IMG/VR virus record: IMGVR_UViG_3300017741_000065
Span: 1 to 21,711 of that record
Length of the DNA stretch: 21,711 nucleotides
Strand: one strand, 5' to 3'
Source: a virus
Part shown: positions 1 to 19,347 of the stretch, piece after piece
Layout: each line of letters opens with the position of its first letter
How positions within the stretch are numbered: the stretch's first letter is position 1
Notes under the pieces: model-generated
What the model was told of the DNA's origin: nothing
Database searches by the model: none
Seen by the model: only the letters and a program-made list of their open reading frames with translations
Position numbers and translations under genes: made by a program

Positions 1-3000
1 AACCTCCAATAGAATTATCACCTTCTATTGCATCCCTGTCTTCATTAAGTTCGTTTTCATTTTTTAAAGAACCATCTTCATTGAATAATTCAGGATTAGT
101 TTCCTTTATCTGCTCAGTAGCTTGTTGTCTTTTAGCTTCTGCATCAGCAGCTTTTTGCAATCTTCTATTATTAAATCTTAATATAGATTCTTTTTTCTGT
201 TGTTTTACATCTTCAAGCAACGCTTGAGCTACCTCTAAAGAAGATTCTTGTAAATCTCCAAATTGGTCATAAGCTAACTGTAATTGTAACAAACTTTCTT
301 CCCTTAAAGTAAGTTCTTCATTATTTAAAACTTTTTGCGAAGACTCGTTAATTGTAACCCTGTTACTATCAAGTTTGTTCTGAATGTCTTTTAAGGCTTG
401 TTGTCTTAGTTCCGGATTAGTAATAGAAACTGCATCTAATACTTCTTTGATATTAGCAAATGTAACTTGACCAATAGCATCAATACCTTTTGCTCTTGGC
501 TTCCCTGATTGTTTTCTTGGACTTGCCTTAGCTTTAACTATTTTATAGATATCTTTAATTACATCTCTCTTTATTTTAGCACGTTGCTGCTCTACCACAG
601 ATAATATTTTTTCTTTTTGTGCTTGAAAATTATCTACAGTTGTTTTAGTAACTGCCGTCAAGAGCCTGTTAAGTTGAGCCTGTGTGTACTTATCTGACTT
701 AGGCAACATTGTTCTTATAAAGTTTTTTAATTGTAGTTGGACTTGTTTAATATTATCTCTTCCTACTTTTTTATCACTTAAAGATTGTCTTATGTTTGCC
801 AACTCTTGAGATACATTTTTATTTCCTCTATATCCAAGGCTTCTGTCAAATCCAATTTGTAACTCTTGTTGTACTTGTTCCGGTTGAGCTTGAAAAATAG
901 GATTAGCCTTTAATAGTTCTTGTGCTTTTTCACGAATCTCTGAGAAACTTTTTACTCTTTGCCCATCTTTTATTGAGAAGTCTTGAAGAGCTACGTTTAT
1001 TTCATTAAATAATTGAGCAGCTTTTTGAACACCACCCTCAACTCTACTAAACTCTGTTGGCATGTTTTGTGCTCCATCAATTTGTACAGTCATAGCTTCT
1101 TTAATTTGAGAAACTAAATAACCTCTTCCTTTCAGAACTTCTTTTATTGATGCATCTGAAAACCCATTCTCTCTACCTACACGTACTATATCTCCAATAC
1201 TTTCGTCAGTTCTAAACATAGCGTTAGCTAAGTTGTCAGTTAGAGTTGTGAGTTGTTTGTCTGTCATTTTAACAGGAGCACCACCAAGTATATCAGCTAA
1301 TGCAGTTCCTAAGAACTCATCCATTGTTAGATTTTGAATTTCCTCTACAGTTAAATCTTTTGAAAGTTTAAATTTATTTTTGACATAAGACCACACGGAT
1401 GCTATCCAATCCTTTATTTTTTGTTTTAATCCTGCCTCTACTACAGACTCTCCTTTGTTTCCTATAAGCGTTGCCATTGTTTCATCAACTGCTTTAGTCA
1501 CATCTCCATCAAACTTCTTTAAAAACTTCTTATACGTTTCTGTTTGTTTTACAAGAGCCTCACCTTTTGCATATATCTTTTTGCCTTGTGGTGTTAATTT
1601 TAAATTCTCAACCCATATGTGACCCATCTCGTGAATTGCAGTATTATACAATTCGCTCTCGGTATTATGAACTTCAGAATTAATAAATATTTTTCCATCT
1701 TGTGTAAGACCATATACTACCTGCCCTTCTTTTAAGTAAGGTGTAACAAATGGACTTGATAAAACTCGGTCCATTGTTTGTTGGTCCGTTGATATGGTTA
1801 CAAAAGGGAAACTACGATTTAAGAAATCCATAAATCTACCTGCGTTATCCATTCCCACTTTGCTTCCGGTAAACTCAAGATTACTTAATCCTGTTTGAAC
1901 AGGAACCGTTTGTGACAATCTTTGTTTAGATGTACGCTTAGGTCTTGAACCTTCCAACTCTTGCTCTTGTCCTAATACAACATTATTCATTGCACTTGGG
2001 AAAAGCTCCACAATTGATTGAGGCTGCTCTATAATACCCATTACTTTACCTCTCGGTCCAACAGGGTAATTAGGATGAGTAGTTTTTTCTAAACCGGGAT
2101 TTAATACATCCACACCTACCACCATATAAGCAGACCTTTGTGGGGTATTGGCTAATTGAGGTTCAGTTAATATGTCAGTAATAGCTCCTTTATTTAGTTT
2201 ACTTCTTTCCTCAATAGATGGATTATCACCTAATAAAAACTTAGCCACCATTGAGGTAGGTCCGGGTTTACCGGGCACCGGCTTCTTGGTTAATGTAGGA
2301 CTATTGGTTTTCCCATAGGTTATGGCATCAACAATTTTGTTTACAGATGCAAGAGTTTTTAATTGGGACAATGCTTCGGGTCTTACAATATCTGCTATAG
2401 TAGCTGCTTCAATATTGTCAACCATTGCTTGTATGTCAGATATTTCAGAAATGTCTTTATTATAATTTCTTATAGTCATCTTAGAAAGAGGCTTACCTGT
2501 TTTTTCGCTAACTCCTTTTTCAATCCTTGTTATTAAACTTTCTTTTTGTTTTGCAAGAGTTTGCATAAACAAATTTAAAGCCTCTCTTTTTACTTCAGCA
2601 GGAAAAGATTCAAGGTTATCTGCTAACACTCTAACAACTGCTTCATTACTTAATATGGATTTAGATTCCATTTTAGTTATAACCATAGGGACAAGACCAT
2701 TATATTCAGGATTCTTGCTCCACCATGTATCAAAAAACTGTTTGTTATTGTCATATACTCTATTGGCTCTTGCAATTTGTGACTTAACTGAACCTTCGTC
2801 TATACTTGCCCAAGCAATATTTTGATGACCTTCTACTCCGGGAAACCCGAGTCCTCCTTTTAAGTTGTCAATTACATTACCTGTACTTGGATTTACTATG
2901 TCTCCTGTTCTAAGTTGGTCCGAGATATTAAATATCACCGGTACTCCATCAATCACTTTCCACTCAATAGTTGGGATAGGATTATCAGTACGACTGTTTA

Positions 3001-6000
3001 GTTCTTCTACATCAATCTTCGGTGAATCAGGATTTGTTTCTTCTACTGCCTCTATATCCACAGTAATAGCTTCGTTCTGAGCATTCATTTCCGCTACAAT
3101 ATCCTCCACAACCCCTGCACCTTCGGTGCTTAAATCTTCTTTCAGTCTGAAGTTCACCTCACCTGACTCAATTTGAGTACGCTCTGCGTTTAGTTCTTGA
3201 ATCAATGCAGCCTTGGTTGCTCTGTTTCTTTTAGAAGCTCTTATTTCTTTTATTTTAGCGTCTATCTCTGCTAATCTTTTTTTCTTCTTAGCAGGAGTCA
3301 ACCCTTTTACTTTTGCTTTAGGTTTTGCTTTAGGTTTTGCTTTAGGTTTTGCTTTAGGTTTTGCTTTAACTTTAGGTGGAAGTTTTACTCCTGATTCTTG
3401 TAGTGTTGCTTCTAAGTCTGACACCTCAGCTTCATCAACCACTACTTCTTCAGTTGGTGTCTTCAAAGACACCTCATTAGTTTCTGTTACAGTTTCTACA
3501 GACACCTCTTCTTTTACAGGTAATCCGGCAGCTTTACGTTGTCTGTTAGACATTTTGTTTTCCGTCTTAGGATTTCTTACAGTTGTAATGTCTACCTCTT
3601 CTGTGGTTTGTATATCTCCTGCGGCATTAGTTAAATATTCTTCATTAGACAAGGTATTGTCTTTAGATATTTTTTCAGTAGTGAAGGCGGTCCCCTCATT
3701 ATCGGTAAGCCTCATTACTCTACTACCATCAAGATTTGTAGTCATAGTAGCATTAAAGGTTTCCCCGTTAGGGTCTGTATATGTAAACGCCTGTTGTTTG
3801 ACAGGGATTCGACTATCGTTTAATGTTTCTACTTCATTCTCCTGAGTGGTCGTAGTCCCCCCGGCTTCTTCGTTGTTCCGTATCTCTGTGTCCACCGCTT
3901 GTATATTTCCGGTTTGTTTATTTTCAAATAATCCTCTTGTTTTTTGCTCTTGAATGGCATCTGTTCCAAATTTATCGTTAATAATTTTTGCTACATCTTG
4001 GTCGTTATCTACTTGTATCTTGGCTTTCTTAAAAGAACTTAGAGACATATCTCCAATTCTTTTTAAGAACTTAGATTTAGTTATACTCTTTCCGTCAATA
4101 TTGTAAGAAGCCTTAACATCGCTTCGAATATCTGTTGAGGTGTTTTGTCTCCCTAATCCTGCAATTTGTAAAAATGTTTGTTTGTCGGTTGGTCTTACTT
4201 TTTTTGTTTCAGCTAACTCTGCTAACTCTGCTTTTACTTCAGAAATCTTAGAACTGAATACTGACTTTCTGTTTGCAGTAGATTCAAGTTCATTCTTAGC
4301 AGCCATCAATTCCATAGTTCTATTTAGAACTTCTTTATTGACACCGCCTTCAGTAGCATTTAAAACATTTAAAGCATCTTGTCTTAAGCCAAGATTTTTT
4401 TGAATACGTTGGTTTACATCTGTGCTTATCTGACCAAGACGCTCCATGTTGTTAGACCAATTAGAAACTTTCTCAGGAGTAACACTCATTTTAAATCCGA
4501 GCTCTTTATTTATTCCTTGTATAGTTGTTAGGTCATTTGCAATTGTGACATTGTTTTGACCTCTCATATCAAGAGCCATATTTAAAGCAGCAAATGGAGC
4601 GTTGTTTCCTAACCCTCCAATACCTTCAGCAAAAATTTCCTTCCAATCTATTTCATCTCCCGCATTTAATTGAGCCATTAATTCTCCTGTAGATTCAGCA
4701 AGAGGGTCAAACACAATACGCTCACCAACTCCTGTCAAAGCTCTTCTTCCTAAAGATGTGGTTTTTCCAACTTGAAACAATCTACCCGCAAGACCTGCGG
4801 ATAGCATATCAACAATTGCAATAGGAATACCCCTTGCAGTTCCTCTTTTCCCGCCTTCAGACCACACGTTCTCATCCTGTAAAGCCATTTTCATTTCTTC
4901 AGGATTCATTATGTTATACCCATTATCTCTTGCGGCATCCATAATTGAGTTGGTATATTCTAATGCAAAGCCTGTTGCAGAAAACCCTGTTCTAAGACCC
5001 CAACTAAAACCGGTTAAGGCACCTCCCGCAGTTGTTACTACACCACCGGGTCCTGAAACAAAACCTGTCGCACCTATACCTGCTCCTATACCTGTTCCTG
5101 TTGCTGCAGAACTACCAATAATCTTCCACCCATAAGGTAGCATTTGAGAGATACTATTACCTGCCATACTAACTGCAAGTTCTGCCGGATTGTCTTTAAA
5201 GGCATTCCAAGACTCTCTAAAACCTTTTGCTTGGTGCCAACGTGCCATAGCTCGACTTGTCTTTCCGGTGTTTCCGGCTTCCATATAATCAACAATTGCT
5301 GAAGCAACATCTGATGTGTCTGAATCGCTATCAATATCTTTTAAACCAAGAGCTAATTTTAATATTTCATTTCCTGCCTTACCTCTATACCATCCTTGCT
5401 CAATTTCATTAGACATTCCTGCCCAATTTTCTACTATCTCTCCACGCAGGTTTTCATCATACTTACTGTCTAAATAGGTTTGTGCTACCTCGTAAGTGTT
5501 GGCAGCTTGTTGAGCCAAATCTTTTGATGCTTTGTATGTTGTTAATATAGAGTCTTTCAGTTTTACTCCTTCTGCATCATCGGGAACATAATCATTAAGC
5601 TCATCTAATGTTACACCAAACTCACTAAGCGATTTAGTTAATAATTCATTTTCTACATATTGCACAGAAGCATTTTGCATAACTGCTTCTTTGGTAATTT
5701 TCTGATATTTTTTATCTATGTATACATCATAATCTTCCCGAACTTCTTGCAAGTCATCGTCTTCATAAAAATCATATAGGTTATCTACTTTGTTTTGAGT
5801 TACCTCTAATATATCAGGTAAGTCGCCTCGAACAAATCCATCTTTACCGTAAAAATCTTTATATAATTCTTGCTCTTCAGAAGATAAGTCTTTAAACTCT
5901 CTTGGGTTATCTAACACATCCTCTATAAAAAGCACTTGGTCACGAGCAGTTTCATAGTCGTTAAAGTTTCGTGTCATTTCTAAGTAATCATAACCACGTT

Positions 6001-7225
6001 CTGAGAAAAAAGCATCTCCTTCAACATCCGCATTTCTAACTTCCTTCCAACTTCCTTTTGCAAAATCATCCGCCTTTTTAGCATCTTCAAACACAAACAA
6101 CTCACCTCTTTTTACTGCTTCATTGTAAGCCTCCATGCCGGAAAGCTCCACCCAATAATCCGGATTGTTAGTTTGAATAGATGGGTTCTTAGGGAAAAGA
6201 GTAGGGTAAACCACATCTTTACCATCTATGTTTGCTGATTCAAATAATACAGTAGATTCAGTTCCGTCAGCATTTAATCTTGGAGTTTTTCTTAAATTTT
6301 TTGCACGAAGTGAAGATTGCATAAAATTGCTTTCCACTTCTTCCCTTCTTTCTTCAGGCTTACGTGCATACTTTGTAACAAAATCTTTGACTTTTTGAGA
6401 TTCCCCTACTGCTCCTTTATTAGTAAAGGTGTCAAGGTCTATAGTTTCTGATACTACTTCTCCATTAGGTAAAACAGTAGACATTTTCATTGCATCACCG
6501 AGTCCTGTTTTTACAAAAGTAAATCCATATTTAGCATATAGATTATTAAAGTAAGCAACTCCTTCATCTTCCTCTAAACCAATCGCTTCTGCCGTGGTAT
6601 AGTCTAATGCGTCTATAAATTCCTTAGAGTTTATAATGTCTTTTCTGTTTGCTTCTTCTAATGCAACTTGTTCTGCTGCTTTTTGTTTTTCTTGTGATTG
6701 TGAAAATTTAAGATTTTCTAATTCTTTATCCGCATTTTTTCCGGTAATACTAATATCCGCAAACCTTTGTGACTGTGCTCGGTCTACACGGTCTTGGTCG
6801 GGATACATACCGAGTTGAGACATAGGGTCTCGATATCCTGTAGTTCTCGTATCTTGTCCTGTAACATTAGATGGTGAAAAATCAAATTTTAGTTTTCCAT
6901 TTTCATCAACTTGAATTTCAGAAATATCTCCTTGTAAATCTTGTTTAGGTTTTTGAGAGTCCAAAGAACCATCCCCCGATGGAGAATCCAAACTTGGTTG
7001 AGCCTTGTCTTTTTTTTTTACCGTACCTATGGAATCTAAAAAATCTATAACTGATACATCTGTTTTGTATGATGGGTCTAATTCTCCCATATAGCCATAA
7101 ATTTGAGACGCATATTGTTGGCTACCCATTTCAGTAATAAAATCTTCAAATACCACGTCTTGCTCAAACCCGGCATCATTTGATACTATGTAGTCATATA
7201 CTTGTCTTAAATATTCCTCATTCAT
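1..7225 (-). CDS. Giant phage internal/ejection protein with polyvalent modules and zinc-metallopeptidase motif (C-terminus beyond window)
   Basis: The frame is open for 2408 codons from ATG at 7225 to the left edge; I read every codon and found no stop. It starts 19 bases after the 628-residue gene. Visible parts: an N-terminal unit ending in a VKKKD motif (~1-75); a compact module at ~310-395 containing DGKDVVYPTLF and an F.D..KADDFA stretch, which recurs in large phage virion proteins; a glycine-rich hydrophobic stretch (~697-760), probably membrane-interacting; FDPLAESTGELMAQL (~830-850), typical of phage ejection proteins; coiled coil (~970-1020); a KPKA linker (~1286-1305); a module with GGLGFPGVEGHQNIAWAS (~1428-1600) continuing to HPNYP (~1705); and HEMGH at 1865-1869 with a candidate third ligand Glu1915. 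The rest is helical. Known: T7-type phages place their largest ejection protein last, after gp14 and gp15; large polyvalent proteins carry effector domains into the host. Inferred: an ejected protein carrying a protease that may act on cell wall or host proteins. No lysozyme or transglycosylase motif was recognised. Confidence 0.8.
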   Translation of the reverse strand, partial: MNEEYLRQVYDYIVSNDAGFEQDVVFEDFITEMGSQQYASQIYGYMGELDPSYKTDVSVIDFLDSIGTVKKKDKAQPSLDSPSGDGSLDSQKPKQDLQGDISEIQVDENGKLKFDFSPSNVTGQDTRTTGYRDPMSQLGMYPDQDRVDRAQSQRFADISITGKNADKELENLKFSQSQEKQKAAEQVALEEANRKDIINSKEFIDALDYTTAEAIGLEEDEGVAYFNNLYAKYGFTFVKTGLGDAMKMSTVLPNGEVVSETIDLDTFTNKGAVGESQKVKDFVTKYARKPEERREEVESNFMQSSLRAKNLRKTPRLNADGTESTVLFESANIDGKDVVYPTLFPKNPSIQTNNPDYWVELSGMEAYNEAVKRGELFVFEDAKKADDFAKGSWKEVRNADVEGDAFFSERGYDYLEMTRNFNDYETARDQVLFIEDVLDNPREFKDLSSEEQELYKDFYGKDGFVRGDLPDILEVTQNKVDNLYDFYEDDDLQEVREDYDVYIDKKYQKITKEAVMQNASVQYVENELLTKSLSEFGVTLDELNDYVPDDAEGVKLKDSILTTYKASKDLAQQAANTYEVAQTYLDSKYDENLRGEIVENWAGMSNEIEQGWYRGKAGNEILKLALGLKDIDSDSDTSDVASAIVDYMEAGNTGKTSRAMARWHQAKGFRESWNAFKDNPAELAVSMAGNSISQMLPYGWKIIGSSAATGTGIGAGIGATGFVSGPGGVVTTAGGALTGFSWGLRTGFSATGFALEYTNSIMDAARDNGYNIMNPEEMKMALQDENVWSEGGKRGTARGIPIAIVDMLSAGLAGRLFQVGKTTSLGRRALTGVGERIVFDPLAESTGELMAQLNAGDEIDWKEIFAEGIGGLGNNAPFAALNMALDMRGQNNVTIANDLTTIQGINKELGFKMSVTPEKVSNWSNNMERLGQISTDVNQRIQKNLGLRQDALNVLNATEGGVNKEVLNRTMELMAAKNELESTANRKSVFSSKISEVKAELAELAETKKVRPTDKQTFLQIAGLGRQNTSTDIRSDVKASYNIDGKSITKSKFLKRIGDMSLSSFKKAKIQVDNDQDVAKIINDKFGTDAIQEQKTRGLFENKQTGNIQAVDTEIRNNEEAGGTTTTQENEVETLNDSRIPVKQQAFTYTDPNGETFNATMTTNLDGSRVMRLTDNEGTAFTTEKISKDNTLSNEEYLTNAAGDIQTTEEVDITTVRNPKTENKMSNRQRKAAGLPVKEEVSVETVTETNEVSLKTPTEEVVVDEAEVSDLEATLQESGVKLPPKVKAKPKAKPKAKPKAKPKAKVKGLTPAKKKKRLAEIDAKIKEIRASKRNRATKAALIQELNAERTQIESGEVNFRLKEDLSTEGAGVVEDIVAEMNAQNEAITVDIEAVEETNPDSPKIDVEELNSRTDNPIPTIEWKVIDGVPVIFNISDQLRTGDIVNPSTGNVIDNLKGGLGFPGVEGHQNIAWASIDEGSVKSQIARANRVYDNNKQFFDTWWSKNPEYNGLVPMVITKMESKSILSNEAVVRVLADNLESFPAEVKREALNLFMQTLAKQKESLITRIEKGVSEKTGKPLSKMTIRNYNKDISEISDIQAMVDNIEAATIADIVRPEALSQLKTLASVNKIVDAITYGKTNSPTLTKKPVPGKPGPTSMVAKFLLGDNPSIEERSKLNKGAITDILTEPQLANTPQRSAYMVVGVDVLNPGLEKTTHPNYPVGPRGKVMGIIEQPQSIVELFPSAMNNVVLGQEQELEGSRPKRTSKQRLSQTVPVQTGLSNLEFTGSKVGMDNAGRFMDFLNRSFPFVTISTDQQTMDRVLSSPFVTPYLKEGQVVYGLTQDGKIFINSEVHNTESELYNTAIHEMGHIWVENLKLTPQGKKIYAKGEALVKQTETYKKFLKKFDGDVTKAVDETMATLIGNKGESVVEAGLKQKIKDWIASVWSYVKNKFKLSKDLTVEEIQNLTMDEFLGTALADILGGAPVKMTDKQLTTLTDNLANAMFRTDESIGDIVRVGRENGFSDASIKEVLKGRGYLVSQIKEAMTVQIDGAQNMPTEFSRVEGGVQKAAQLFNEINVALQDFSIKDGQRVKSFSEIREKAQELLKANPIFQAQPEQVQQELQIGFDRSLGYRGNKNVSQELANIRQSLSDKKVGRDNIKQVQLQLKNFIRTMLPKSDKYTQAQLNRLLTAVTKTTVDNFQAQKEKILSVVEQQRAKIKRDVIKDIYKIVKAKASPRKQSGKPRAKGIDAIGQVTFANIKEVLDAVSITNPELRQQALKDIQNKLDSNRVTINESSQKVLNNEELTLREESLLQLQLAYDQFGDLQESSLEVAQALLEDVKQQKKESILRFNNRRLQKAADAEAKRQQATEQIKETNPELFNEDGSLKNENELNEDRDAIEGDNSIGG
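3311..3370 (-). repeat. Five tandem 12-bp units encoding a (Lys-Pro-Lys-Ala) linker
   Basis: Five consecutive 12-bp units read ttttgctttagg on the plus strand; four are identical and the fifth ends in 'ac'. They encode alternating Lys-Pro-Lys-Ala on the minus strand inside the giant gene (residues ~1286-1305). The array stays in frame because the unit is a multiple of three. It separates the acidic, low-complexity middle of the protein from the next folded module, so it looks like a stiff, positively charged linker. The near-perfect copies suggest recent slippage and length variation between strains. Confidence 0.95.
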
Positions 7226-9134: not shown

Positions 9135-10001
9135 CTAATTTCCTTGAGATTTTTTCCAATCTAAAAACTGTTGATACTCAGAGTTCATCGACCCGGCTCC
9201 ATATTCCATACCAAAAGCATTGTTAAATTGTTTAGGTGCATATGATGCATAAGCAGTTTCATAAGCATCACTTCCAAAAATCTGCCCTTTTTCTGCACCT
9301 GATAATCCCGATTTAAACCTTCTGAAATCTCTATTTTTATAATTTGAAAAATCTATATTTTTTAACTGTGTGTCTCCTACTTTTATATTGTCAAATGATT
9401 TATCAGAAAAGTCCATGTCAGCTACTGCTTTTCTTTGACCTCCTATGTTTTGACTAAATAACGGAACCATTGACAACCCTTGTTGTAATGCGGCACCTGC
9501 CGATTGAATACCTTGCATCTTAGCAGCCTCGGCTCGTCTACCTGCGTCTGCCGCAGCCATTTGAGCACCTTCGACTTCTTGTAAATCTAATTTGACGTTC
9601 ATATCTCTTAAACGAGAATCTTCATCTGCTTGTAATTTTTCGAGTTTATTGACTTCCTGTTCTTGTGCGGCACGAATTTTACCTTGACCTTCTTGTGTGG
9701 CTAATTGAACTCTTCCTACTCCGGCTGCAGCTCCTCGCTCATCACCTTCCACTACTGCTTGAGTTGCACCTGCCGCTTGTTCTAATATTTTTTCTCTTTC
9801 AATATTATATACTTCTTTGTTGACACTTAATTCATCAAAAACATTGACTTCAAGTTTCTTTCTTGCTTCTGCCATCATTTTTTCCGCCCTAAGTTGAGCT
9901 GCCTCTCGTTCTCTTCTTGCGGCTCCGGCTTGTCCAAACGACATCGCAGATGAACCAATGGATACTGCTAAACCACCAATACCTAAAAATAATCCTGACA
10001 T
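9135..10001 (-). CDS. gp14-like internal virion (ejection) protein
   Basis: 288 residues. Residues 3-26 are a glycine/alanine-rich hydrophobic segment (LFLGIGGLAVSIGSSAMSFG), followed by a long Ala/Glu/Arg/Gln-rich coiled-coil region (~29-130) and a second Ala-rich helical stretch (~145-185). This hydrophobic-N-terminus plus coiled-coil layout, and its place directly before two larger internal proteins, match T7 gp14, the ejection protein that enters the host outer membrane to start the DNA channel. The start codon lies inside the last 19 bases of the cupin gene, behind an A-rich AAAAAAGAAAAG stretch, so translation is probably coupled to that gene. The stop is a single TAG that is in frame with the next gene. 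The C-terminal ~100 residues, rich in Phe, Tyr and Ser, are not recognised. Confidence 0.7.
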   Translation of the reverse strand: MSGLFLGIGGLAVSIGSSAMSFGQAGAARREREAAQLRAEKMMAEARKKLEVNVFDELSVNKEVYNIEREKILEQAAGATQAVVEGDERGAAAGVGRVQLATQEGQGKIRAAQEQEVNKLEKLQADEDSRLRDMNVKLDLQEVEGAQMAAADAGRRAEAAKMQGIQSAGAALQQGLSMVPLFSQNIGGQRKAVADMDFSDKSFDNIKVGDTQLKNIDFSNYKNRDFRRFKSGLSGAEKGQIFGSDAYETAYASYAPKQFNNAFGMEYGAGSMNSEYQQFLDWKKSQGN

Positions 10002-10522
10002 AATAACTTTTCTTTTTTAATTACACTTATGGGTAAAGTTTTATAATCTTCCGTGTATACATCTGCTTCTGCATCTTCAAAGGTTTTAGCCTCGGTTTTA
10101 TACACACAACACCACTTAGTATCTTCATGCATATACAATACTCTTTGAGTTCCTATCTGAGTAAAAATAATGTGAGGTGCTTTTATTGTTACAAGTTCCC
10201 CACTATCAGTCAAATATGACACTTTACCTTCAAGCAAAAAAGATGGGTGTTGTTGTTTGTGAATCATAGATATTATAAAATGTCCCTTTGGAATAAACAT
10301 CTGTCTTGTATACAAACCACCCTCTAAAGTTTGTTTAATTGGGTATACTTGTTTACAAATTTCACTTTGTTCTTCACCACACTTATGCGTAATTGCTTGG
10401 TCAAACTTACTCAAATCCTCTCTAAAGGTTTCTATTCTTTCCCAAAGCATTCCCCTGTTTTGATTTACATAATTTAATATGCTTTCAGGTTTATACTCCT
10501 GAACCTCTACAGAATCTTGCAT
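9983..10522 (-). CDS. Cupin-like phage protein
   Basis: 179 residues with a central single-domain cupin (double-stranded beta-helix) pattern. Motif 1 is FIPKGHFIIS followed by His88, His92 and Glu98-Gly99; motif 2 is around Gly124, Arg127 and His132 (GTQRVLYMHED). His88, His92 and His132 are candidate metal ligands, although the spacing departs from the classical enzyme motif. Residues 1-60 look helical and contain Cys48, Cys56 and a charged heptad-like stretch. Similar small cupin-like proteins occur in marine phage genomes without known function. It is the first gene after the promoter at 10541-10548 and overlaps the gp14-like gene by 19 bases, so it is co-expressed with the ejection proteins. 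It could be a minor virion or assembly factor, or an enzyme or sugar-binding protein acting on the host. The fold is fairly secure; the function is unknown. Confidence 0.7.
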   Translation of the reverse strand: MQDSVEVQEYKPESILNYVNQNRGMLWERIETFREDLSKFDQAITHKCGEEQSEICKQVYPIKQTLEGGLYTRQMFIPKGHFIISMIHKQQHPSFLLEGKVSYLTDSGELVTIKAPHIIFTQIGTQRVLYMHEDTKWCCVYKTEAKTFEDAEADVYTEDYKTLPISVIKKEKLLCQDYF

Positions 10523-10526
10523 ATAA

Positions 10527-10559
10527 TTAAATTTTATTTACAAAGATAGTAAAATTTAA
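10527..10559. repeat. Perfect 10-bp inverted repeat around the second promoter element
   Basis: TTAAATTTTA (10527-10536) and TAAAATTTAA (10550-10559) are perfect inverted copies separated by 13 bases that contain the TATCTTTG promoter element. The left arm lies between the element and the cupin start codon; the right arm covers the stop codon of the 276-residue gene. The arms are all A/T, so the hairpin would be weak as RNA and has no following U-run, which argues against a terminator. An operator for a dimeric regulator, or chance in AT-rich DNA, are the alternatives. Confidence 0.55.
10541..10548 (-). promoter_or_regulatory. Bacteroidota-type -7 promoter element for the cupin-ejection block
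   Basis: On the minus strand this reads TATCTTTG followed by TA, matching the Bacteroidota sigma-factor -7 consensus TAnnTTTG. It lies in the 33-base gap before the cupin gene, 18 bases upstream of its ATG. A clear -33 TTTG is not present at the expected distance (the region reads TCTTTCCC). The only other copy I found in the window has almost the same distance to a start codon (17 bases), which strengthens both. Confidence 0.55.
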
Positions 10560-11386
10560 GGGAAAGATTTCATCACTTCAGATTCAACCGCAAACAGTTC
10601 TGAAGGATTAATGGCAATAGTTTTGTCTAAAGTAAGAGTAAACTCACAGTAATGCCCCAAAATACCATGTGATTCTGCTATAGGATTCTTAATATAAAGA
10701 AAATAAGCATCATTTATAGGGACAGGATAAGTAGTACCCGCCACCGTAGTAGTGTCAATTACTAATTGATTTATGCCATTTACTTTATCTACTTGGATAT
10801 CAGTAATTACACCCGCAAATTGAGGGGTGTCGTAGGGAGGTACTGAAAAATAAAGATAATCTCCAACACTAACGATACTTCCAATATTAACATTCAAATT
10901 AAAAAGTATTTCATATGCTGCAGCAGGACCGTTTTCGGACACACTTCTGCCTATTCCATTTAAAGAACGTAATTCAAAAGCACCTTGCGTTACACCTGCA
11001 CCTGTATTGTTATTGGTTCTTATAAAAGCAAACCAATCTCCCTCTTTTCGCTCATACCAATTTTCTGTTGGACCTGCGGTAATATATCCATTGTTTTGAA
11101 TGTCAGTATTACCATTAAAACTCCAAGCATCATCACTTTCTAAATTAATAGTTTTAAATATTTTATTTTGTAAAGGTTGCTCATTAAATACTGTAGAGAT
11201 AGTAGAGTCGTAAGTGGTTCCATAAAAAGTATTATAGTTACTATTGACATTGTGTCTAAACAAATTACCACCTTTAAAGGTGTAAAAGTATTGATTCATT
11301 CCTATCATATAATCAGGAAAGTAAGAGTAAAAAGATGGAAATCCTTTTGAACCTTCGCTATATGTTAATGTATAATTTTCGGGCAT
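10556..11386 (-). CDS. Tail-tip protein resembling the distal part of muzzle/stabilization proteins
   Basis: 276 residues, no signal peptide. Residues 8-27 (TYSEGSKGFPSFYSYFPDYM) and 34-46 (FYTFKGGNLFRHN) followed by a Tyr/Asn-rich NTFYG stretch form a pattern that I know from the distal portions of tail muzzle/stabilization proteins of Crassvirales-like and other Bacteroidota phages, where the K-G-W/F-x-S-F-Y motif precedes 'tf.gG.ly.Hn'. The C-terminus (SELFAVESEVMKSFP, 262-276) also fits that family. The start is 2 bases after the preceding stop. As the large upstream gene carries the proximal muzzle part, this gene probably supplies a separate polypeptide of the same tail-tip assembly. 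It is the last gene of the first block; a new promoter element follows. Confidence 0.65.
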   Translation of the reverse strand: MPENYTLTYSEGSKGFPSFYSYFPDYMIGMNQYFYTFKGGNLFRHNVNSNYNTFYGTTYDSTISTVFNEQPLQNKIFKTINLESDDAWSFNGNTDIQNNGYITAGPTENWYERKEGDWFAFIRTNNNTGAGVTQGAFELRSLNGIGRSVSENGPAAAYEILFNLNVNIGSIVSVGDYLYFSVPPYDTPQFAGVITDIQVDKVNGINQLVIDTTTVAGTTYPVPINDAYFLYIKNPIAESHGILGHYCEFTLTLDKTIAINPSELFAVESEVMKSFP

Positions 11387-11388
11387 AA

Positions 11389-12318
11389 TTAACAGTTTGT
11401 TAGTGAGTTTATAATACCATCTCCATCGACAACCATTGTCTTTCTAATTACACCTACCTGTATATAGTAAGTTCCTTGAGATGCTTTTACAGAGCCGTTA
11501 GGGTCTACAACGCAAAATTCATTTACTGCAGGGTCCCCTGCAAGTCCTCCTGAATTTGGAACATTAAAATAAGTATTAGGCAAGTTAGCGGTTAAGCAAT
11601 CCGTTCCTCCGGTAACAAGGTTGGATGTTGAAAACCCTGTCAATTGAACCGGACAGTTAATACCAAGAGTCCACCCTGTGTTAGCACAAGGACCAAATAT
11701 CTCAACACTTACAACTTCCGGAGTTTGAAGTGGTTTAGGTATATACAAAGTGACCGGACCCGGAGACGGAATAGTTAATCGAACATCACCGCCATTACCG
11801 GTAACTACACCATTTGACCCTGTTGGGTCAAAATTTGCACCGTTAAAGTTAAAAGTATTTTCTCCTGAATATCCTCCACCATTTAAAGTTTGTGCAATAT
11901 TACAATCGCTATTTATATTTCCAACAAAAGTATAATGTCCATTGGTGTTTGAGGATAAATATCCTTGAGTTGCACTTGTTGTCTCGTTATAGAACTGATT
12001 ATTGTATTGTACCCTTATACCATCGGGTATTGCAGATACATTAAAATATAAAATAATAGCACCTACTGAACTTCCTGTCCCAAAATTCACGGTATAAATT
12101 CCACCACCACCACCGGCATTAATAGAAGTATTACAGGGTAAAACACATGAAGGACAAATAACAACTGCTAACAACACTCCACCTACTTGTTCTCTTGAAA
12201 TGACAGAGTTTGAATAAAATCCATCAGGTGCAGGTGTAGTTAGGGTGGCATCTGTAAATACTGCAGTAGCAGTCTCTAAAGTTGAACCGTCTATAAAATA
12301 ATTTCCAAAAACTCCCAT
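11389..12318 (-). CDS. Glycine- and cysteine-containing tail surface protein, adhesin-like
   Basis: 309 residues, predicted almost all beta and low in Lys. Residues 17-36 (ATAVFTDATLTTPAPDGFYS) followed by Arg42 and CPSCVLPC (55-62) resemble short surface modules repeated in tail proteins of Bacteroidota phages. A GGGGG turn, GAIILYFN (86-93) and PDGIRVQY (98-105) form a second recognisable stretch, followed by Asn/Gly-rich loops, an IPKP motif (~194), and four or five further cysteines, ending in Cys309. It has no signal peptide, which is expected for a virion protein assembled in the cytoplasm. It sits 12 bases after the muzzle gene, in the same frame but behind two consecutive TAA codons. 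Position and composition suggest a tail-tip or fibre-like component touching the host; a specific receptor cannot be named. Confidence 0.6.
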   Translation of the reverse strand: MGVFGNYFIDGSTLETATAVFTDATLTTPAPDGFYSNSVISREQVGGVLLAVVICPSCVLPCNTSINAGGGGGIYTVNFGTGSSVGAIILYFNVSAIPDGIRVQYNNQFYNETTSATQGYLSSNTNGHYTFVGNINSDCNIAQTLNGGGYSGENTFNFNGANFDPTGSNGVVTGNGGDVRLTIPSPGPVTLYIPKPLQTPEVVSVEIFGPCANTGWTLGINCPVQLTGFSTSNLVTGGTDCLTANLPNTYFNVPNSGGLAGDPAVNEFCVVDPNGSVKASQGTYYIQVGVIRKTMVVDGDGIINSLTNC

Positions 12319-12330
12319 ATCTAAATTTTA

Positions 12331-15300
12331 TTAAGGTATTTGATTTGAACACTCACAATCAACCAATTCCACATCAATGTTAGGGTCTGCAAAAACCTCG
12401 GTTGCACATATTGCAACTGACCCAAATCCGGGTACATCAATTTGAGAAGGTTTTATGCAATCCACATAAAAGAATGTTATTGTGTTTTGCGTATTGTTTA
12501 TCAAATTATATTCTTGACAAACTTGTATACAATTAGACACCAATGATATTCCTGTTATAGTATCTTGTGCCACTCCGCTCCCTGATGTGTTTACTACTTC
12601 GTAAATACACCCGTCTTGCAAAGTTACAAAACTCCCAACAAATACCGTAAAGCCTCCGTCATTTACCGGGAATGATGGTTGAACATCACCTCCACAGTTT
12701 TGAACTGTAACTAATTGAGGTGAAGGAGTTAGGTTGCAATCACAATCTCCAACTTCAGTAATTATTAATGCAGGGTCATATGGTTGTATGTCTTTTGCAC
12801 AAGTAGGGAAAACAACTATATCTTGTGGACCAACTGTAAGCGTGTTGGTACTGCCATCACATTGGACATACGTTATTGTTTCTGAAACATTTGTCGGATT
12901 TTCTATTCTATATTCTTGACATACCTCATTACAATCAGTAATAGTAAGTATGTTAGTAATAACTTCCCCTGTTCCTGTTAGTGGGTCACTTGTTGTATTC
13001 ATTACTTCAAACACACAATTATCTTCACTCCAAGATACAAAATCGCCTACCTGAGCATTTTGCCCGAAAGGAACTATATGAGTCTCATCAACAGTTTGTA
13101 ATGAACATTTTTTAATTAATAAATTGCTTGGTTGACAACTTACTAAAACTTTGGATACGCCGGTAGCAGAAGTTAAATCTGTAGCAGCTATGGTAACTGT
13201 TGCTCCATTAGCAATTGGAATAAAAGAAGCTACACCTGAACAATCTGTGTATTGATATAATATAGGTGAGCCTGAAGCATTAGTTATTTCATACTCTTGA
13301 CACACATCTAAACAAGACGATTCGCTTTCTACTTGATTTATTGTTTGAGTTGGTGTTAAACTTGTTAAAGCTAACACTTCCCATCTACAATCTGTATTTG
13401 ACAATATACTTACAATGTCGCCTACTTTAGCACTTGTAGACCCTTGAGATATTGTTTCCAAAGGAACAATTGCTCCGTCAGCTCTACATTGTTGAATGCG
13501 GAAGTTAAGCGGAGTGTTACACTCGCATCCACTATATTGAAGCGTTAAGTCCGCATCTAATGAAACCTGCCCCCCTGTTAAACATATAATATTAGAAGAA
13601 GCCGGTGGGATAGTTTGGCTTTGTTGTTGGAATAAGCAATCAAAATAAATTATAGTTCTGAAAAGAGTAGAGCTTGTATTAGTAACGATGTATTCACTAC
13701 ACTTAGAACTACAATTAAAGTTTGAAGAGAAACTATCTATAGTTGTCCCGCTCCCTGTTGCTGAAACAACAGATGTTATTTCGTAAGCACATCCATTAAC
13801 AAAAACAAAGAATCCAATACTTAGATTTCCTGCTGAATCCAATACCGTAATTGTTTCAGGTATTGAAGCAGGGGTAGTAGTGACCGCAGAGTTTTGGCAT
13901 AATTCTGCCTCATAGTAAATTTGATTACAAACACAGTCTATTAGCGTAACATTAAAATTACCGAGACTACCGGTCCAATTTGTAATTTCTCGAGCACATA
14001 ATTCTATAGTAGTTTCGTCATTAATAAATAATGTCTGAACAATACCATCGCAGTCCGTATACGTTAGGTCACCCCCACCTTCTTTTTCTGCACTATTTTC
14101 TATTTCATATCGTTGACAGACCTCAGAACAATCAGTAAATGAAGAAGCACCTAACATATTAAAGGTTGCTACTTGAGAAACATCAACTTGTAATACTTCC
14201 CAAACACATTGTTGATTGCTACCGTCAGTTATTGTTATTAAATCACCAACTGTTACATTAAATCCTGTAGTATCCGCATATCCTATTTGTGGGTAAGTTA
14301 AACTTTCATAAGAACTTTCACATCTTCTTACTTCCGACACAATTGTCGGAGGTAAAACAGTACAATCACAATCAATTAAAGTAAGCGTTACATCACCTAC
14401 CAATGTAGAAATAGTTTTAGCACAAATGGTTTCGGTATTTCCAATACCAAGACTTATTGTTATACTATCATCGTCACAATCAACATATGTGACATCGTAA
14501 GCGGTATCAGGACTTGTATTTGTAACTTCATATGTTTGACAAACATCTGAGCAGTCTGTAATATCAGTTCTAATTGTTGTTACTACTGCGTTAAGAGGGT
14601 CTTGTGTTTGTTGTACTACTTGATAAACACAATCATCATCACCTACACTAAGCTCTACAAAGTCCCCTATTATTAAACCACCTGCTTCAGTTATTATATA
14701 TTCTACTACAGGGTCTGTGGTGCTTAAGTTACATTTCTGAACTCTTAAGTTATCTCCTGTTTCACAATCACAACACACATCAAATGGGTCAATATTGCCA
14801 TAACATAATTCCACTTCTGTTGGTCTTCTATAATCGTATATTAAATACAAATATTCTTCGTTTGTATTTGGCATAGGAAACTCTACTTGATAAGTGTTTG
14901 GACCACCTGTTATAGGAGTTCCATTAACTGAGGCTGCCATTAAAGCTGCCATATCATTTGGAGTGTTTGCATAAAAAGTATTACTTCTTAAGTATCTCAA
15001 CTCATCTAAAGATGGGTCAAACACATAGTCATCAATAGGTAAGATTCTATTAGAAATTATTCTAACAGAAGCCGTATTAGCCGGTATAAAGCCTCCACCT
15101 TGAGGACCGCTTAATTGAGTATACTGAGATATTAAAGGATTTTGTGTTCCCGCAACGAGCTCTACTTGTTCGCTATGTAAAGGAGAAATAAAAGCTCCAT
15201 CAGTCCATCGGTATTCATTGTGAATAAACTTGTCCGCATCGGCACTAAGAGAATAACAAACTTGAATTATAGTTATTTCCGTGACCGCAGGGCAATTAAC

Positions 15301-18300
15301 AGTTACTTCTAAGGTGGTGGTACCTGAACTTTGAATAGACACTTCTACGGTATCCTCTGCTACAGAGTTTTTATCAACTATTAAAGTACCTGAAACAGTT
15401 GTATTACCTGTACTCACAGTTGTATTGTCGTATTCCGCATCAATGTTAAATGATGGAGTAACTCCAATTACATTGTAATCTATACTTACATCACCTACTA
15501 AATTTCCTACGTCAACGCAGAAATTTGAAGATGAGTTAGATGTAATAATTATTGTTCGAGTTATACCACAATCAATACAAACAGGTGTTGTAGGTAGTAA
15601 TTCAGAAGTAGCACTTAATACGTATTCATTCATGTAAGGGTCATATCCGCCAAGTTTCTGAGTTCCAAAAGAACCTAAGAATAAGTCTCTAAACCAAGAC
15701 CTCATTCCTGCTTCTGATATTACAGTTAACCTTTCGCTTTGACCTGATGTCCCTGTTAATTGAATTACCGCTCCTCTTTTTGCGTCAGTAAAAAATTTAT
15801 TAGGTCCCCATTTTGCATAACTTTCCGGGTTAAAGCTAATACCATATTCTTCAATCCGAGAAATTTGCGTACCCAAAACTTCAGGGATAGAAGCGATAGA
15901 GCCTCCGCCTGTTGAGTCAGATAAAAGGTTTTTACCTTGAAGCACATAAGAAATTTTATCCTCTTGTAATGTGAGTATGTCTGTTTCTCTTCCGTCTATT
16001 TTAAATATAGGTCCAAAGTTTTCTTCAATAGGTTTAAAGTTTAGTAATCCAAGATTAAATTCATTTAGCTTATTAACATTAGATTCATCATTAAACACAC
16101 CACTATAAGTTAAGTCAGCAAACCTTCTTACTTGCTGATAGTCTTGAGCTGATGTCGTAAATATTCTGTTTCCTAATTCAAGAGTTTTCCCTTTTATAGA
16201 GTCACGTGCTTGATAGCTTTCAACTCCATTACCAAAAGAATAACAATTAAAAAATTCTGTAGAAATAATTGCAGGAATACTTCCGGTTTGGTTTTGAATG
16301 TTTCCTGTATGCGTCCCCTCAGTTAAAGGTGAGCTATTAATCGTAACGTCTGCAGGAAACTGCGGAGGTGTTGAAGGGTTTATTGTAACTGAATTACAAA
16401 CTCCAATTACATCTACTATGTTATTGTCATTTTGTACAATAATAGAAGATGATTGATTATTTATATCTAAATAGTCAAACTGAATAGGTGCATTATTTGT
16501 GTCTACCTGTAATTTAAAAAGACATTTGTTGTTTCCCTGAATAATTGGGTAAGAGACAGAACTCTCAAACCATACATCAGGTAAAGCATCTTGAGTTGGG
16601 GTTTCAAATGCAATGAAAGATGTGCTTCTAATAACCTCAATAGTCACTTGAAGTGTTGTCTTTTTTCTACTATTTCCACTATATCCTTTTGAGCTCTTCC
16701 AACTAAAAAACGTACGTCCATTACTTGTTGTAAATTGACAAGAGATTTGTCCTGCACTACATCCTTGAAGAAAACCTCCATTAAGAATTGGATTGTAATT
16801 TATAGCACCTACACCTGACCCTTCATCTGAACCTTGAGCCTCTAATATACCTGCAATGTTACTATTATCAAACCATTCTTTGAAATTATCATACTCTTGG
16901 TCAACAGTAAAAGTTTGGTTTACTGACCATTTTTTAAAAGGCACTCGTCTAATTCCTCTACGTTGATTTAATATTTCAATTCTTACTCTACTACCTGCCG
17001 GAAGAGAGTAATCTACATAGGTCCCCGGGTTAGCACTATCTTCAATATCTACAGGATAGCTTACAACTCTACAACCTGAACCATTACTACTAATTAAACC
17101 GTAATTTACGACAGGATTATCTCCTACATCTGTATTAAATTCATTTGCTCTTATTTTCATATAAGTTCCTGTAGGTACAGGAATTTCTGCTCCGTTTAAA
17201 TCGAGAGGAGCAGGATTAAGAAAATCCCTTGGTTGAGATTTTTTTTCTAATACTGTAGCAAATGCACATCTATTTACCGGTCCTGTTGCATCACTCTTAA
17301 CTTTAAGAATATCTCCTTCTTCAACCTTCGTAGAGTTCTCACCGTCAAGTAAAAAATAATCAGCTCCCGTAGAAGGGTCTGTAAAAAAGAATGTAGTAAA
17401 AACATTAAAACCTCCCTCTTGGTCTTGTTTAATACAAAACTTATATCGTGTTGCAAAAGCAGGTGCAATTTGTTCAGGTGGTATTGTTATTTGTATTTTG
17501 TTTTGTAATTCACTATTGGCACACGGAACAGATATTGTGTTGTTTGGACTTACAAGAGCAGTTGTTGCACGATTAAAATCATCCATATAAATAATACCAA
17601 CTTCGTATGTTCTATCACTATGTAAACTTGTTGGGTTACCTATTTCTAAAAAAGTAAAATCTGCACCTGTAATTTCATAGTATTCGTAAACACTAACTGT
17701 AATAGCCGCTCCTGTAGGGTCGTCAACAAATCGCATAGCGGGTAATACAAAACCAATATTGTTAGAACCGGGAGAAGCCTCTATCCTAATCGGTTGTCCT
17801 GCCGTTGATATACCACTTTCAAGTTTAGTTAAGTTGCCTAAATTATTATTTATAATACAATTAAATTCATCGGTAAAAGTGGTTCCATCACACGCATCAA
17901 CTACAGGTTCTATGTTTGTTATACTACCAACTGCATCTATAAAAGAAACACTTGTAGCGAGTTCGTATACACTATTGTAATCTTGCGGTAATATAAAACC
18001 AAATGATATTTCAGCACTTTGCGTGGTTACATTAGGGAAGTCCGCAGGATTACCTGAAAACTGACTGTGTGTAAAAAATATTTGAATAGAGATAGAAGCT
18101 CCTGCTTTAAGCTCTAAATCCCCAACGTCTATAAAAGCAACTTGAGATTGATTAACTGCTACCACCCCATCTATGGTATAAACTGTAGCAAATAGTTCTT
18201 CTTCAATATCTTTTAATCCAATTATATTAGCTTCTAAATCTGCCGTATATTCTAATTGCGTAGGAAATCCACCTGCAGTTACAATATCTCTTTGTTCTAA

Positions 18301-19347
18301 ATAATTTGCATAAATTAATCTATTACCCATTATAGTTTGAGCAGTAGATAATAAAGGTACGTTGTCGTATAATCTTAAAATTTCACTTGATGGTAGTATT
18401 GTAAATATTTTTTGGTCACTAAATGTGTAAGTATATTCTGTGTTATTAAAAAGTCCTAAGTCTTCTTTGTTTAGTTTTTCAATAACTTTAATAGTACCGG
18501 AGTTCATGTCTTTGAATAGCAAATCAACACCCACTACTAATTCACTTCCGGAGTTGTATGTTATTTCAGCTTGATTCCCAAGGTTTAACATTCCATCATT
18601 TAAGCCTTTTGCAAAACTAAATTGAAAAGGACTTGGTATAAAAGCAGGTGCAGAAAATTGTGAGGTTGCGGAGTATTCACTATCAGCGTATTTATACCTG
18701 TATGCAAAACTTATAAACTTATCTTCTAAAAAATTATTTTGCCCTGAAGTTGGTAAAGTTTTAACAAGCGGAGAATTTAATGGTGGCTTCTTAATTACAA
18801 GAATAGATTCAGCAGTAAAAGCATCAATTGCTGCTTGAGGATTAGGATAGTCTCTTTCTGTGTTTATAAATCTTGGAGGATTATAATTATCAGTAAAAAA
18901 CAATAACTTTGAATCTACTAAGTTTACACCGTTAATTAAGTAATCTTCGTTAAAATTTAAAGTAGTATTTATATTACCACCATCATTAACACTAATAACG
19001 TGGTATGTTAAGATGTTTGTTAAAACATTAAGAGAAACAATAAGGTCTAATTTGTTTGTAACTTGAGAAGTAAAACCGGGGTCCGTAACAAACCAATATA
19101 TAGTTTCATTCGCACCATCCTCAAATGCACCTATACATTTTGCTTGACCCGACAAAGGTATACCTTCGTATTCAAGACTTGTTAAAGCAACATTCCCTTT
19201 TGCATTTTCTACAGAGCCAATTTCTGTTTCTTCTGTAGAACCTAACCTTACGTTTAAGGCATCAGTATATTGCCCATTAGGAATAAGTCTCTCATCGAGA
19301 CCTTTGTTCATAATACCCGCAATAAAATTTCTCTGTGTATTCGCCAT
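12331..19347 (-). CDS. Giant tail muzzle (stabilization/nozzle-like) protein with C-terminal cysteine repeat array
   Basis: 2338 residues. The N-terminus (GIMNKGLDERLIPNGQYTDALNVR, residues ~10-33, then a G.VENAKGN segment) is the typical opening of podovirus tail-tip beta-propeller proteins (T7 gp12 / P22 gp10 role, called muzzle in Crassvirales). A second conserved block at ~1074-1245 includes RFADLTYSGVFN, TDAKRGAVIQL (~1185-1196), ISEAGMRSWFRDLF and LGGYDPYMNEYVLS. After it come an Ig-like beta region (~1275-1351), a segment with QVCYSLSADADKFIHNEYRW (~1362-1381) that recurs in Bacteroidota phage tail proteins, a CCDC cluster (~1523-1527), and six cysteine-rich repeats (1534-2338). Muzzle proteins I recall are roughly 1000-1500 residues; the excess here is mostly the repeats. 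Its ATG is 2 bases after the stop of the ring-protein gene. Role: closes the distal tail and probably presents receptor-contacting modules. Confidence 0.8.
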   Translation of the reverse strand: MANTQRNFIAGIMNKGLDERLIPNGQYTDALNVRLGSTEETEIGSVENAKGNVALTSLEYEGIPLSGQAKCIGAFEDGANETIYWFVTDPGFTSQVTNKLDLIVSLNVLTNILTYHVISVNDGGNINTTLNFNEDYLINGVNLVDSKLLFFTDNYNPPRFINTERDYPNPQAAIDAFTAESILVIKKPPLNSPLVKTLPTSGQNNFLEDKFISFAYRYKYADSEYSATSQFSAPAFIPSPFQFSFAKGLNDGMLNLGNQAEITYNSGSELVVGVDLLFKDMNSGTIKVIEKLNKEDLGLFNNTEYTYTFSDQKIFTILPSSEILRLYDNVPLLSTAQTIMGNRLIYANYLEQRDIVTAGGFPTQLEYTADLEANIIGLKDIEEELFATVYTIDGVVAVNQSQVAFIDVGDLELKAGASISIQIFFTHSQFSGNPADFPNVTTQSAEISFGFILPQDYNSVYELATSVSFIDAVGSITNIEPVVDACDGTTFTDEFNCIINNNLGNLTKLESGISTAGQPIRIEASPGSNNIGFVLPAMRFVDDPTGAAITVSVYEYYEITGADFTFLEIGNPTSLHSDRTYEVGIIYMDDFNRATTALVSPNNTISVPCANSELQNKIQITIPPEQIAPAFATRYKFCIKQDQEGGFNVFTTFFFTDPSTGADYFLLDGENSTKVEEGDILKVKSDATGPVNRCAFATVLEKKSQPRDFLNPAPLDLNGAEIPVPTGTYMKIRANEFNTDVGDNPVVNYGLISSNGSGCRVVSYPVDIEDSANPGTYVDYSLPAGSRVRIEILNQRRGIRRVPFKKWSVNQTFTVDQEYDNFKEWFDNSNIAGILEAQGSDEGSGVGAINYNPILNGGFLQGCSAGQISCQFTTSNGRTFFSWKSSKGYSGNSRKKTTLQVTIEVIRSTSFIAFETPTQDALPDVWFESSVSYPIIQGNNKCLFKLQVDTNNAPIQFDYLDINNQSSSIIVQNDNNIVDVIGVCNSVTINPSTPPQFPADVTINSSPLTEGTHTGNIQNQTGSIPAIISTEFFNCYSFGNGVESYQARDSIKGKTLELGNRIFTTSAQDYQQVRRFADLTYSGVFNDESNVNKLNEFNLGLLNFKPIEENFGPIFKIDGRETDILTLQEDKISYVLQGKNLLSDSTGGGSIASIPEVLGTQISRIEEYGISFNPESYAKWGPNKFFTDAKRGAVIQLTGTSGQSERLTVISEAGMRSWFRDLFLGSFGTQKLGGYDPYMNEYVLSATSELLPTTPVCIDCGITRTIIITSNSSSNFCVDVGNLVGDVSIDYNVIGVTPSFNIDAEYDNTTVSTGNTTVSGTLIVDKNSVAEDTVEVSIQSSGTTTLEVTVNCPAVTEITIIQVCYSLSADADKFIHNEYRWTDGAFISPLHSEQVELVAGTQNPLISQYTQLSGPQGGGFIPANTASVRIISNRILPIDDYVFDPSLDELRYLRSNTFYANTPNDMAALMAASVNGTPITGGPNTYQVEFPMPNTNEEYLYLIYDYRRPTEVELCYGNIDPFDVCCDCETGDNLRVQKCNLSTTDPVVEYIITEAGGLIIGDFVELSVGDDDCVYQVVQQTQDPLNAVVTTIRTDITDCSDVCQTYEVTNTSPDTAYDVTYVDCDDDSITISLGIGNTETICAKTISTLVGDVTLTLIDCDCTVLPPTIVSEVRRCESSYESLTYPQIGYADTTGFNVTVGDLITITDGSNQQCVWEVLQVDVSQVATFNMLGASSFTDCSEVCQRYEIENSAEKEGGGDLTYTDCDGIVQTLFINDETTIELCAREITNWTGSLGNFNVTLIDCVCNQIYYEAELCQNSAVTTTPASIPETITVLDSAGNLSIGFFVFVNGCAYEITSVVSATGSGTTIDSFSSNFNCSSKCSEYIVTNTSSTLFRTIIYFDCLFQQQSQTIPPASSNIICLTGGQVSLDADLTLQYSGCECNTPLNFRIQQCRADGAIVPLETISQGSTSAKVGDIVSILSNTDCRWEVLALTSLTPTQTINQVESESSCLDVCQEYEITNASGSPILYQYTDCSGVASFIPIANGATVTIAATDLTSATGVSKVLVSCQPSNLLIKKCSLQTVDETHIVPFGQNAQVGDFVSWSEDNCVFEVMNTTSDPLTGTGEVITNILTITDCNEVCQEYRIENPTNVSETITYVQCDGSTNTLTVGPQDIVVFPTCAKDIQPYDPALIITEVGDCDCNLTPSPQLVTVQNCGGDVQPSFPVNDGGFTVFVGSFVTLQDGCIYEVVNTSGSGVAQDTITGISLVSNCIQVCQEYNLINNTQNTITFFYVDCIKPSQIDVPGFGSVAICATEVFADPNIDVELVDCECSNQIP
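12334..14748 (-). repeat. Six tandem eight-cysteine protein modules at the muzzle C-terminus
   Basis: Module boundaries by residue: 1534-1670, 1671-1811, 1812-1948, 1949-2075, 2076-2212 and 2213-2338. Each opens with a pattern like LRVQKC, then V/IGDxV, a Cys followed by V/W-Y/W-E-V, a DCxxVC motif, QxYEIxN, Y-x-D-C, I-C-A, and a closing DCxC. In module 1 the cysteines are residues 1539, 1573, 1599, 1603, 1624, 1642, 1660 and 1662. Five modules keep all eight; module 4 has six. The copies are clearly homologous in protein but well diverged in DNA, so this is an old, selected array rather than recent slippage. The second half of the module (QxYEIxN ... YxDC ... ICA) resembles a small beta module frequent in Bacteroidota phage tail proteins. 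Confidence 0.9.

Follow-up and report, generated by a model that had tools for sequence, protein, structure and literature searches.

A viral tail protein of 2338 residues ends in six cysteine-rich modules (residues 1532-2338), which we interpret as β-domains held together by disulfides. Five of the modules carry eight cysteines, here numbered C1 to C8, and the fourth carries six. On our reading, to which we give a probability of roughly 0.6, one of the two bonds that involve the terminal CxC motif (C7 and C8) is missing from module 4, the simplest pairing being C6-C8 together with C3-C7. The analysis describes an apparently disulfide-rich β-domain, lacking a consistent match in the family libraries searched, which uncultured viruses of crAss-like and flavophage-like kinds carry on their muzzle-like tail proteins. 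The natural losses of cysteine among its homologues make two pairings clear except for which cysteine of the CxC each takes, a choice which module 4 as the sole case is insufficient to settle, and the proposed disulfide map is testable by ordinary experiment.

The tail protein and its surroundings

The window, by which we mean the whole stretch of DNA analysed, is a virus record of 21,711 bases; practically the same virus is present in IMG/VR as a second record of 58 kb, IMGVR_UViG_3300017728_000008. All ORFs of at least 100 aa in the window lie on the minus strand, bar one of 210 aa within the frame of a 2408-aa ORF. The tail protein (12331..19347, minus strand) consists of a muzzle-like body (residues 1-1531; 14755..19347, minus strand) followed by the six modules. 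It matches phrog_14478, annotated as 'virion structural protein', with E = 2.2e-217 (the best of three stretches, residues 6-757), and tblastn finds structural-protein matches in 87 phage records, mostly of Flavobacterium and Cellulophaga phages. The 40 matches listed all fall within residues 1-1561, and the alignments to flavophage structural proteins that define the body cover, for example, residues 1-1515 and 1-1245.

The muzzle C-terminal domain, PF25729 (crAss_MUZ_C), has its own ORF in the window (10556..11386, minus strand; E = 1.4e-15, with 57.9 bits where the cut-off is 27), whereas in the homologue from Flavobacterium phage elemo it is fused to the body, at residues 1302-1373 of 1493 (E = 1.2e-18). 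The intervening ORF (11389-12318, minus strand) resembles, by eye, a stretch fused to the C-terminus of the body in L037, where L numbers denote loci in the set of B-domain homologues described below. A Pfam search of the 2338-aa protein with E up to 0.1 gave no match to PF25731 (crAss_MUZ) and returned only a hit of residues 2020-2062 to Borealin (PF10512), which at 15.2 fell short of the cut-off of 19.5; Borealin matches one of 21 single B domains (E = 4e-4) and was taken as a chance hit. A profile of 15 muzzle-like bodies gives a weak match to crAss001 gp44 (E = 9.1e-5, probability 59%). Judged by sequence, 'muzzle-like tail protein' seems a fair name, although membership is not proven.

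Elsewhere in the window, the 2408-aa ORF (2-7225, minus strand) contains the stretch AIHEMGHIW, which we take to be a possible HExxH metallopeptidase motif; this ORF has no match in Pfam (E up to 0.1) or PHROGs (E up to 0.01). An ORF of 179 aa (9983-10522, minus strand) matches the PHROGs annotations 'tail fiber adhesin' (7.4e-23) and 'short tail fiber protein' (1.8e-21).

The six modules and their cysteines

The modules are 128-141 aa long, with identities of 20-37% over the 15 possible pairs, and each is made up of an A part containing C1 and C2, followed by a B domain of about 65 aa containing C3 to C8. From module 1 to module 6 the cysteines number 8, 8, 8, 6, 8 and 8. All modules are on the minus strand. 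Module 1 occupies 14344..14754 (Cys 1539, 1573, 1599, 1603, 1624, 1642, 1660 and 1662), module 2 occupies 13921..14343 (Cys 1676, 1714, 1740, 1744, 1766, 1784, 1805 and 1807) and module 3 occupies 13510..13920 (Cys 1817, 1853, 1879, 1883, 1904, 1922, 1941 and 1943). Module 4, the one without C6 and C8, lies at 13126..13509 (Cys 1954, 1987, 2012, 2016, 2036 and 2071), and is followed by module 5 at 12727..13125 (Cys 2081, 2111, 2139, 2143, 2163, 2183, 2202 and 2204) and module 6 at 12334..12726 (Cys 2218, 2247, 2273, 2277, 2297, 2314, 2331 and 2333).

The first-pass annotation of this DNA had described eight cysteines in modules 1, 2, 3, 5 and 6, and the absence from module 4 of exactly C6 (Ala2054) and C8 (Pro2073), and this description is exact in both residues and coordinates. 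Positions 13129-13188 are exactly codons 2054-2073, with Ala2054 (codon GCT) at 13186..13188 in the place of C6 and Pro2073 (codon CCA) at 13129..13131 in the place of C8, both read on the minus strand, as are the codons that follow. The terminal cysteine that is kept, Cys2071 (codon TGT, 13135..13137), is assigned to the C7 register from the sequence and from the register score described below. The other cysteines of this B domain are C3 (Cys2012, 13312..13314), which we infer to pair with Cys2071, and C4 (Cys2016, 13300..13302), for which the hairpin register in the predicted structure suggests C5 (Cys2036, 13240..13242) as partner.

Sequencing error was considered as the origin of the two replacements and rejected. 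It is unlikely because a cysteine codon needs at least two base changes to become that of Ala2054 and at least three to become that of Pro2073 (by the codon table), and because the DNA of module 4 is identical in IMGVR_UViG_3300017728_000008, with a single mismatch over all 17,378 bases aligned. By itself, however, the lone double loss is weak evidence for any bond, because two of eight cysteines can go in 28 ways, and 4 of these would hit a bond whichever four-bond scheme holds. It is the homologues that give the loss its weight.

Predicted structure

AlphaFold2 gave a pLDDT of 92.8 and a pTM of 0.83 for module 1 (using a 60-row alignment), and 95.8 and 0.84 for module 4, which is therefore predicted to fold without C6 and C8. 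The predicted strand order is the same in the two modules, with different lengths in the A part, and the short strand that follows C6 in module 1 (114-117) is shorter than three residues in module 4. The strands of the first B hairpin are at 73-79/86-91 in module 1 and 71-77/83-88 in module 4; counted from the strand ends, C4 is opposite C5 in both models (72 + 93 = 79 + 86; 70 + 90 = 77 + 83). Searches of solved structures gave no convincing match, the best Foldseek E against any PDB chain being 0.92. The best Z from VIA-align was 5.8 (PriA, to the A part) and the best E in BFVD was 1.2e-3.

The B-domain family

Homologues were collected with an iterated profile from 395 loci, some of which overlap on one contig, comprising 9,133 distinct ORFs of at least 60 aa. 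The profile found 263 B-domain stretches in 157 ORFs. The 249 stretches with E up to 0.01 correspond to 223 distinct sequences and to 185 representatives at 75% identity, from which we removed one truncated row and four hits lying within the muzzle body, and three rows (L060, L092 and L003) were corrected by hand. The final set has 180 representatives from 91 loci, mostly at the C-termini of muzzle-like tail proteins. Strongly cysteine-poor relatives may be missing from it, since the profile was seeded with 21 cysteine-rich domains.

Pfam, PHROGs and the PDB gave no known family for the module that was consistent across members; in PHROGs, no family was matched by more than two of 60 members of the family alignment (A5), with a best E of 0.0097. 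A search for distant relatives with an alignment of all six modules turned up no conserved stretch, and the modules, the L140 tail and the L242 modules gave no tblastn match in 50,697 phage records. Two scans with consensus peptides, one of them of bacterial genomes, returned one locus each, both in the set, and a viral scan for further relatives of L279 recovered only the three contigs of its own lineage. Such modules are not named in the titles or abstract openings of the open-licence PMC papers listed on muzzle disulfides or cysteines, cysteine-rich Crassvirales, or cysteines of Flavobacterium and crAss-like phages.

The A and B domains can evidently stand alone: in the tails of L042, L048 and L041, long linkers of Pro and Thr (PTP) separate the A-like and B domains. 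Beyond the end of the muzzle-like protein, fused A+B modules and B domains are found in other ORFs as well, namely in the +0 frame of L040, the +2 frame of L048 and second ORFs of L032, L242 and L246. L395, a contig in a MAG of a Planctomycetaceae bacterium, holds a PTP-linked B domain; our guess is that the contig belongs to a phage and that the gene is not bacterial. Among 43 fused rows the A part is complete in 39, and module 3 of L341 is counted without C1 in this tally only because the stretch supplied was too short.

Cysteines are mostly lost in pairs

C3 to C8 are all present in 142 of the 180 rows. Of the 38 incomplete rows, 34 are missing just one of three pairs: C3 with one cysteine of the terminal CxC (17 rows), C4 with C5 (15 rows), or C6 with one terminal cysteine (2 rows, module 4 and L279). 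Outside these classes, a single terminal cysteine alone is absent from two rows (L088 and L332), the third domain of L003 lacks C3, C6 and one terminal cysteine, and module 3 of L341 (L341:7917-8306) lacks C4 and C6. The cysteine total of this last domain stays even, as if the left-over cysteines had re-paired.

Position by position, C4 and C5 are concordant in 179 of 180 rows. Where both C7 and C8 are present (158 rows), C3 is kept in every row and C6 in 157. The CxC is halved in 22 of the 180 rows, 18 without C3 and 3 without C6, with L003 counted in both, so that 20 of 22 rows with one terminal cysteine lack C3 or C6. Conversely, C6 is kept with only one terminal cysteine in 17 rows and in L088 and L332, where the identity of the missing one as C7 or C8 is often ambiguous. 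The loss of C6 with one terminal cysteine recurs in a distant lineage of three contigs (L279, L280 and L281), in which C3, C4 and C5 are kept; L279 has 17% identity to module 4 in the B domain.

Fisher tests treat the rows as independent, which they are not; they give p = 5.6e-21 for C4 with C5, 2.9e-21 for C3 with the terminal pair and 0.0059 for C6 with the terminal pair, and p of at least 0.22 for the other seven pairs. At 45% identity the 180 rows form 90 clusters; the 17 C3-less rows fall in 3 of these, the rows without C4 and C5 in 4, and the pair without C6 in 2. On one quick tree, calculated without the cysteine columns, the state changes number 4 for C3, 2 for C4, 1 for C5, 4 for C6 and 7 for the terminal pair. 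A test of independent pairs has one supported pair among the cases listed, and no power there. Because the independent events are few, the case rests on the tidiness of the loss patterns and not on a p-value.

The cysteine totals may be considered in the same way. Of 95 distinct B-domain tails that are complete to the stop codon, 79 have an even total, counted after the end of the body alignment; a naive binomial probability for this excess is 3.5e-11, which is inflated by relatedness. The other 16 tails are odd, five of them with 25 cysteines each, all from the L065 query. Two extra cysteines between C4 and C7 occur in 9 rows, in all of them at C4+7 and C5-7, which is the same hairpin register. 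An odd number of extra cysteines in this interval is found in 30 of 180 rows (one in 23, three in 7), and some of these may have their partners outside the domain.

The choice within the CxC

From the joint loss of C6 and C8 in module 4, the first-pass annotation had predicted that these two form one bond or share a metal site. Module 4 and L279 favour the bond, but loss of C3 likewise goes with a halved CxC. Module 3 of L341 shows C6 lost independently, with C5, C7 and C8 kept, an outcome which that annotation had named as refuting its proposal, and the rows that keep C6 with one terminal cysteine may show the converse. These sequences thus support a specific C6-C8 bond in part.

In module 4 and in L279, the kept cysteine scores best as C7 by strand register, a score which identifies the true C7 correctly in 119 of 142 control rows and the true C8 in 123 of 142. 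The family alignment, contrary to this, puts the cysteine of L279 and L280 in the C8 column. Among the 17 C3-less rows, the cysteine that remains has the register of C7 in 6, that of C8 in 3 and one in between in 8.

Covariation offers a second view, and its verdict on C6 and C8 is divided. With all 180 rows, the strongest of all column pairs are C4-C5, C3-C8 and C6-C7, and C6-C8 trails the last two (z of 7.9 for C3-C8, 5.8 for C6-C7 and 4.7 for C6-C8). When the 18 C3-less rows are dropped, masked or placed as C8, C6-C8 leads them, the top three couplings being C4-C5, C6-C8 and C3-C7 in varying order. The absolute z-values mean little, because invariant cysteine columns reach z of about 5.4 with zero cysteine variation.

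It could be, although we consider it unlikely, that the native bonds are C6-C7 and C3-C8 (plus C4-C5). Module 4 and L279 would then have broken two bonds, with the left-over C3 and C7 re-pairing, and the loss of C8 would belong to C3. The couplings from all rows agree with such a pairing, and remain the same without the C6-less rows. The C3-less domains also speak for it: all 17 keep C6 and a terminal cysteine, with Gly 8-10 residues before the latter in 17/17, and Gly is found 8-11 residues before C7 in 89 of 142 complete rows. However, the ranking depends on where the C3-less rows are placed, their registers being split 6/8/3 as above, and without them C6-C8 and C3-C7 lead. In addition, re-pairing would be needed in both module 4 and L279. 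In our view C4 is the partner of C5, while C3 and C6 each take one cysteine of the CxC, with a lean to C6-C8 and hence C3-C7.

A model for the modules

With C6-C8 and C3-C7 as the preferred pairing, each module would be a compact pair of β-domains, A with C1 and C2 and B with C3 to C8, strung along the end of the tail protein, and its bonds would form when the particle reaches oxidising surroundings. C1 probably pairs with C2. There would be three bonds in the B domain, of which C4-C5 would staple the first hairpin, while C3 and C6 would each bond to one cysteine of the terminal CxC. These cysteines probably lie at one pole of the domain, where the bonds would clamp together the entry and the exit of the chain. 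In module 4, C6 and one CxC cysteine would have been lost together, with the remaining cysteine, in the C7 register, staying tied to C3.

Downstream of the muzzle-like body, relatives have PTP-linked cysteine domains, other domains or almost nothing. Together with the Big_9/cadherin-like domain of phi19:3, described below, this gives the look of an exposed and exchangeable tail-tip array, armoured with disulfides, and the array is likely to face outward and to act as an adhesin or a spacer.

It is improbable that the two losses of module 4 arose as unrelated drift, with selection on the repeat relaxed. They are a single event in a 2338-aa protein, in a module with only 27% identity to module 1 (33% in the B domain), which would suit drift; but by register the same two cysteines are absent from a distant lineage, for which the chance is 1 in 28, rising to 2 in 28 if C7 cannot be told from C8, and module 4 is predicted to fold (pLDDT 95.8) and has kept an even number of cysteines. 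More speculative still is a disulfide clasp at the tail tip in which C3, C6, C7 and C8 can shuffle between two workable pairings. It might act as a redox-sensitive latch, loosening the array of modules when the particle is at the host surface, with module 4 as a weaker link built into it; if this were true, lineages could drop either partner.

Least probable of all is a metal (Zn) site with C3, C6, C7 and C8 as four ligands, lost in module 4: the four are indeed lost in company with each other and not with C4 or C5, and two of them form a CxC, but rather than being kept or lost together they go by twos with the other four cysteines kept (17 rows keep C6 and one terminal cysteine, module 4 and L279 keep C3 and one), whereas a broken four-cysteine site should not retain two ligands so strictly, and since nine rows have gained two cysteines as a cross-strand pair and tail totals are mostly even, disulfides fit better than the shared site of the first-pass annotation.

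Comparison with known systems

The closest comparison is with the crassvirus muzzle (crAss001 gp44; PF25731 and PF25729), a gated hexamer that sits at the end of the tail. PF25729 is present in the tail gene cluster of the window, and is fused to the body in the elemo homologue; unlike the crassvirus muzzle, the 2338-aa protein has no PF25731 match and its MUZ_C domain is on a separate ORF. The B-domain profile found nothing convincing in crAss001 gp44 (best E 0.64). The muzzle-like protein of Cellulophaga phage phi19:3 (Pachyviridae) similarly has an extra domain near its C-terminus, at residues 1366-1453 of 1613, but this is Big_9/cadherin-like (Ig- or cadherin-like by Pfam) and not a cysteine module.

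Among solved structures, the B part overlays the spore-appendage protein Ena1C (9t3p) with Z 4.0 and rmsd 2.4 over 60 residues (Foldseek E 1.4), although several unrelated cupin-like entries score similarly and the similarity is far below a convincing fold match. Ena proteins (Ena1C; Ena2A, 9i0y) are cross-linked by disulfides, and their fold family is named DUF3992-like.

Disulfides have also been described in phage tails. They stabilise the tail barrel and fibre hubs of crAss001 (PMC10172136) and the sheath and baseplate of Agrobacterium phage Milano (PMC10811340), and the crass domain of the crAss001 muzzle, at the tail tip, is suggested to contact the cell surface (PMC10172136). The modules described here would resemble both phages in having parts of the tail held by disulfides, with the difference that the bonds described there are between chains (PMC10811340, PMC10172136), while here they are proposed to lie within a small domain.
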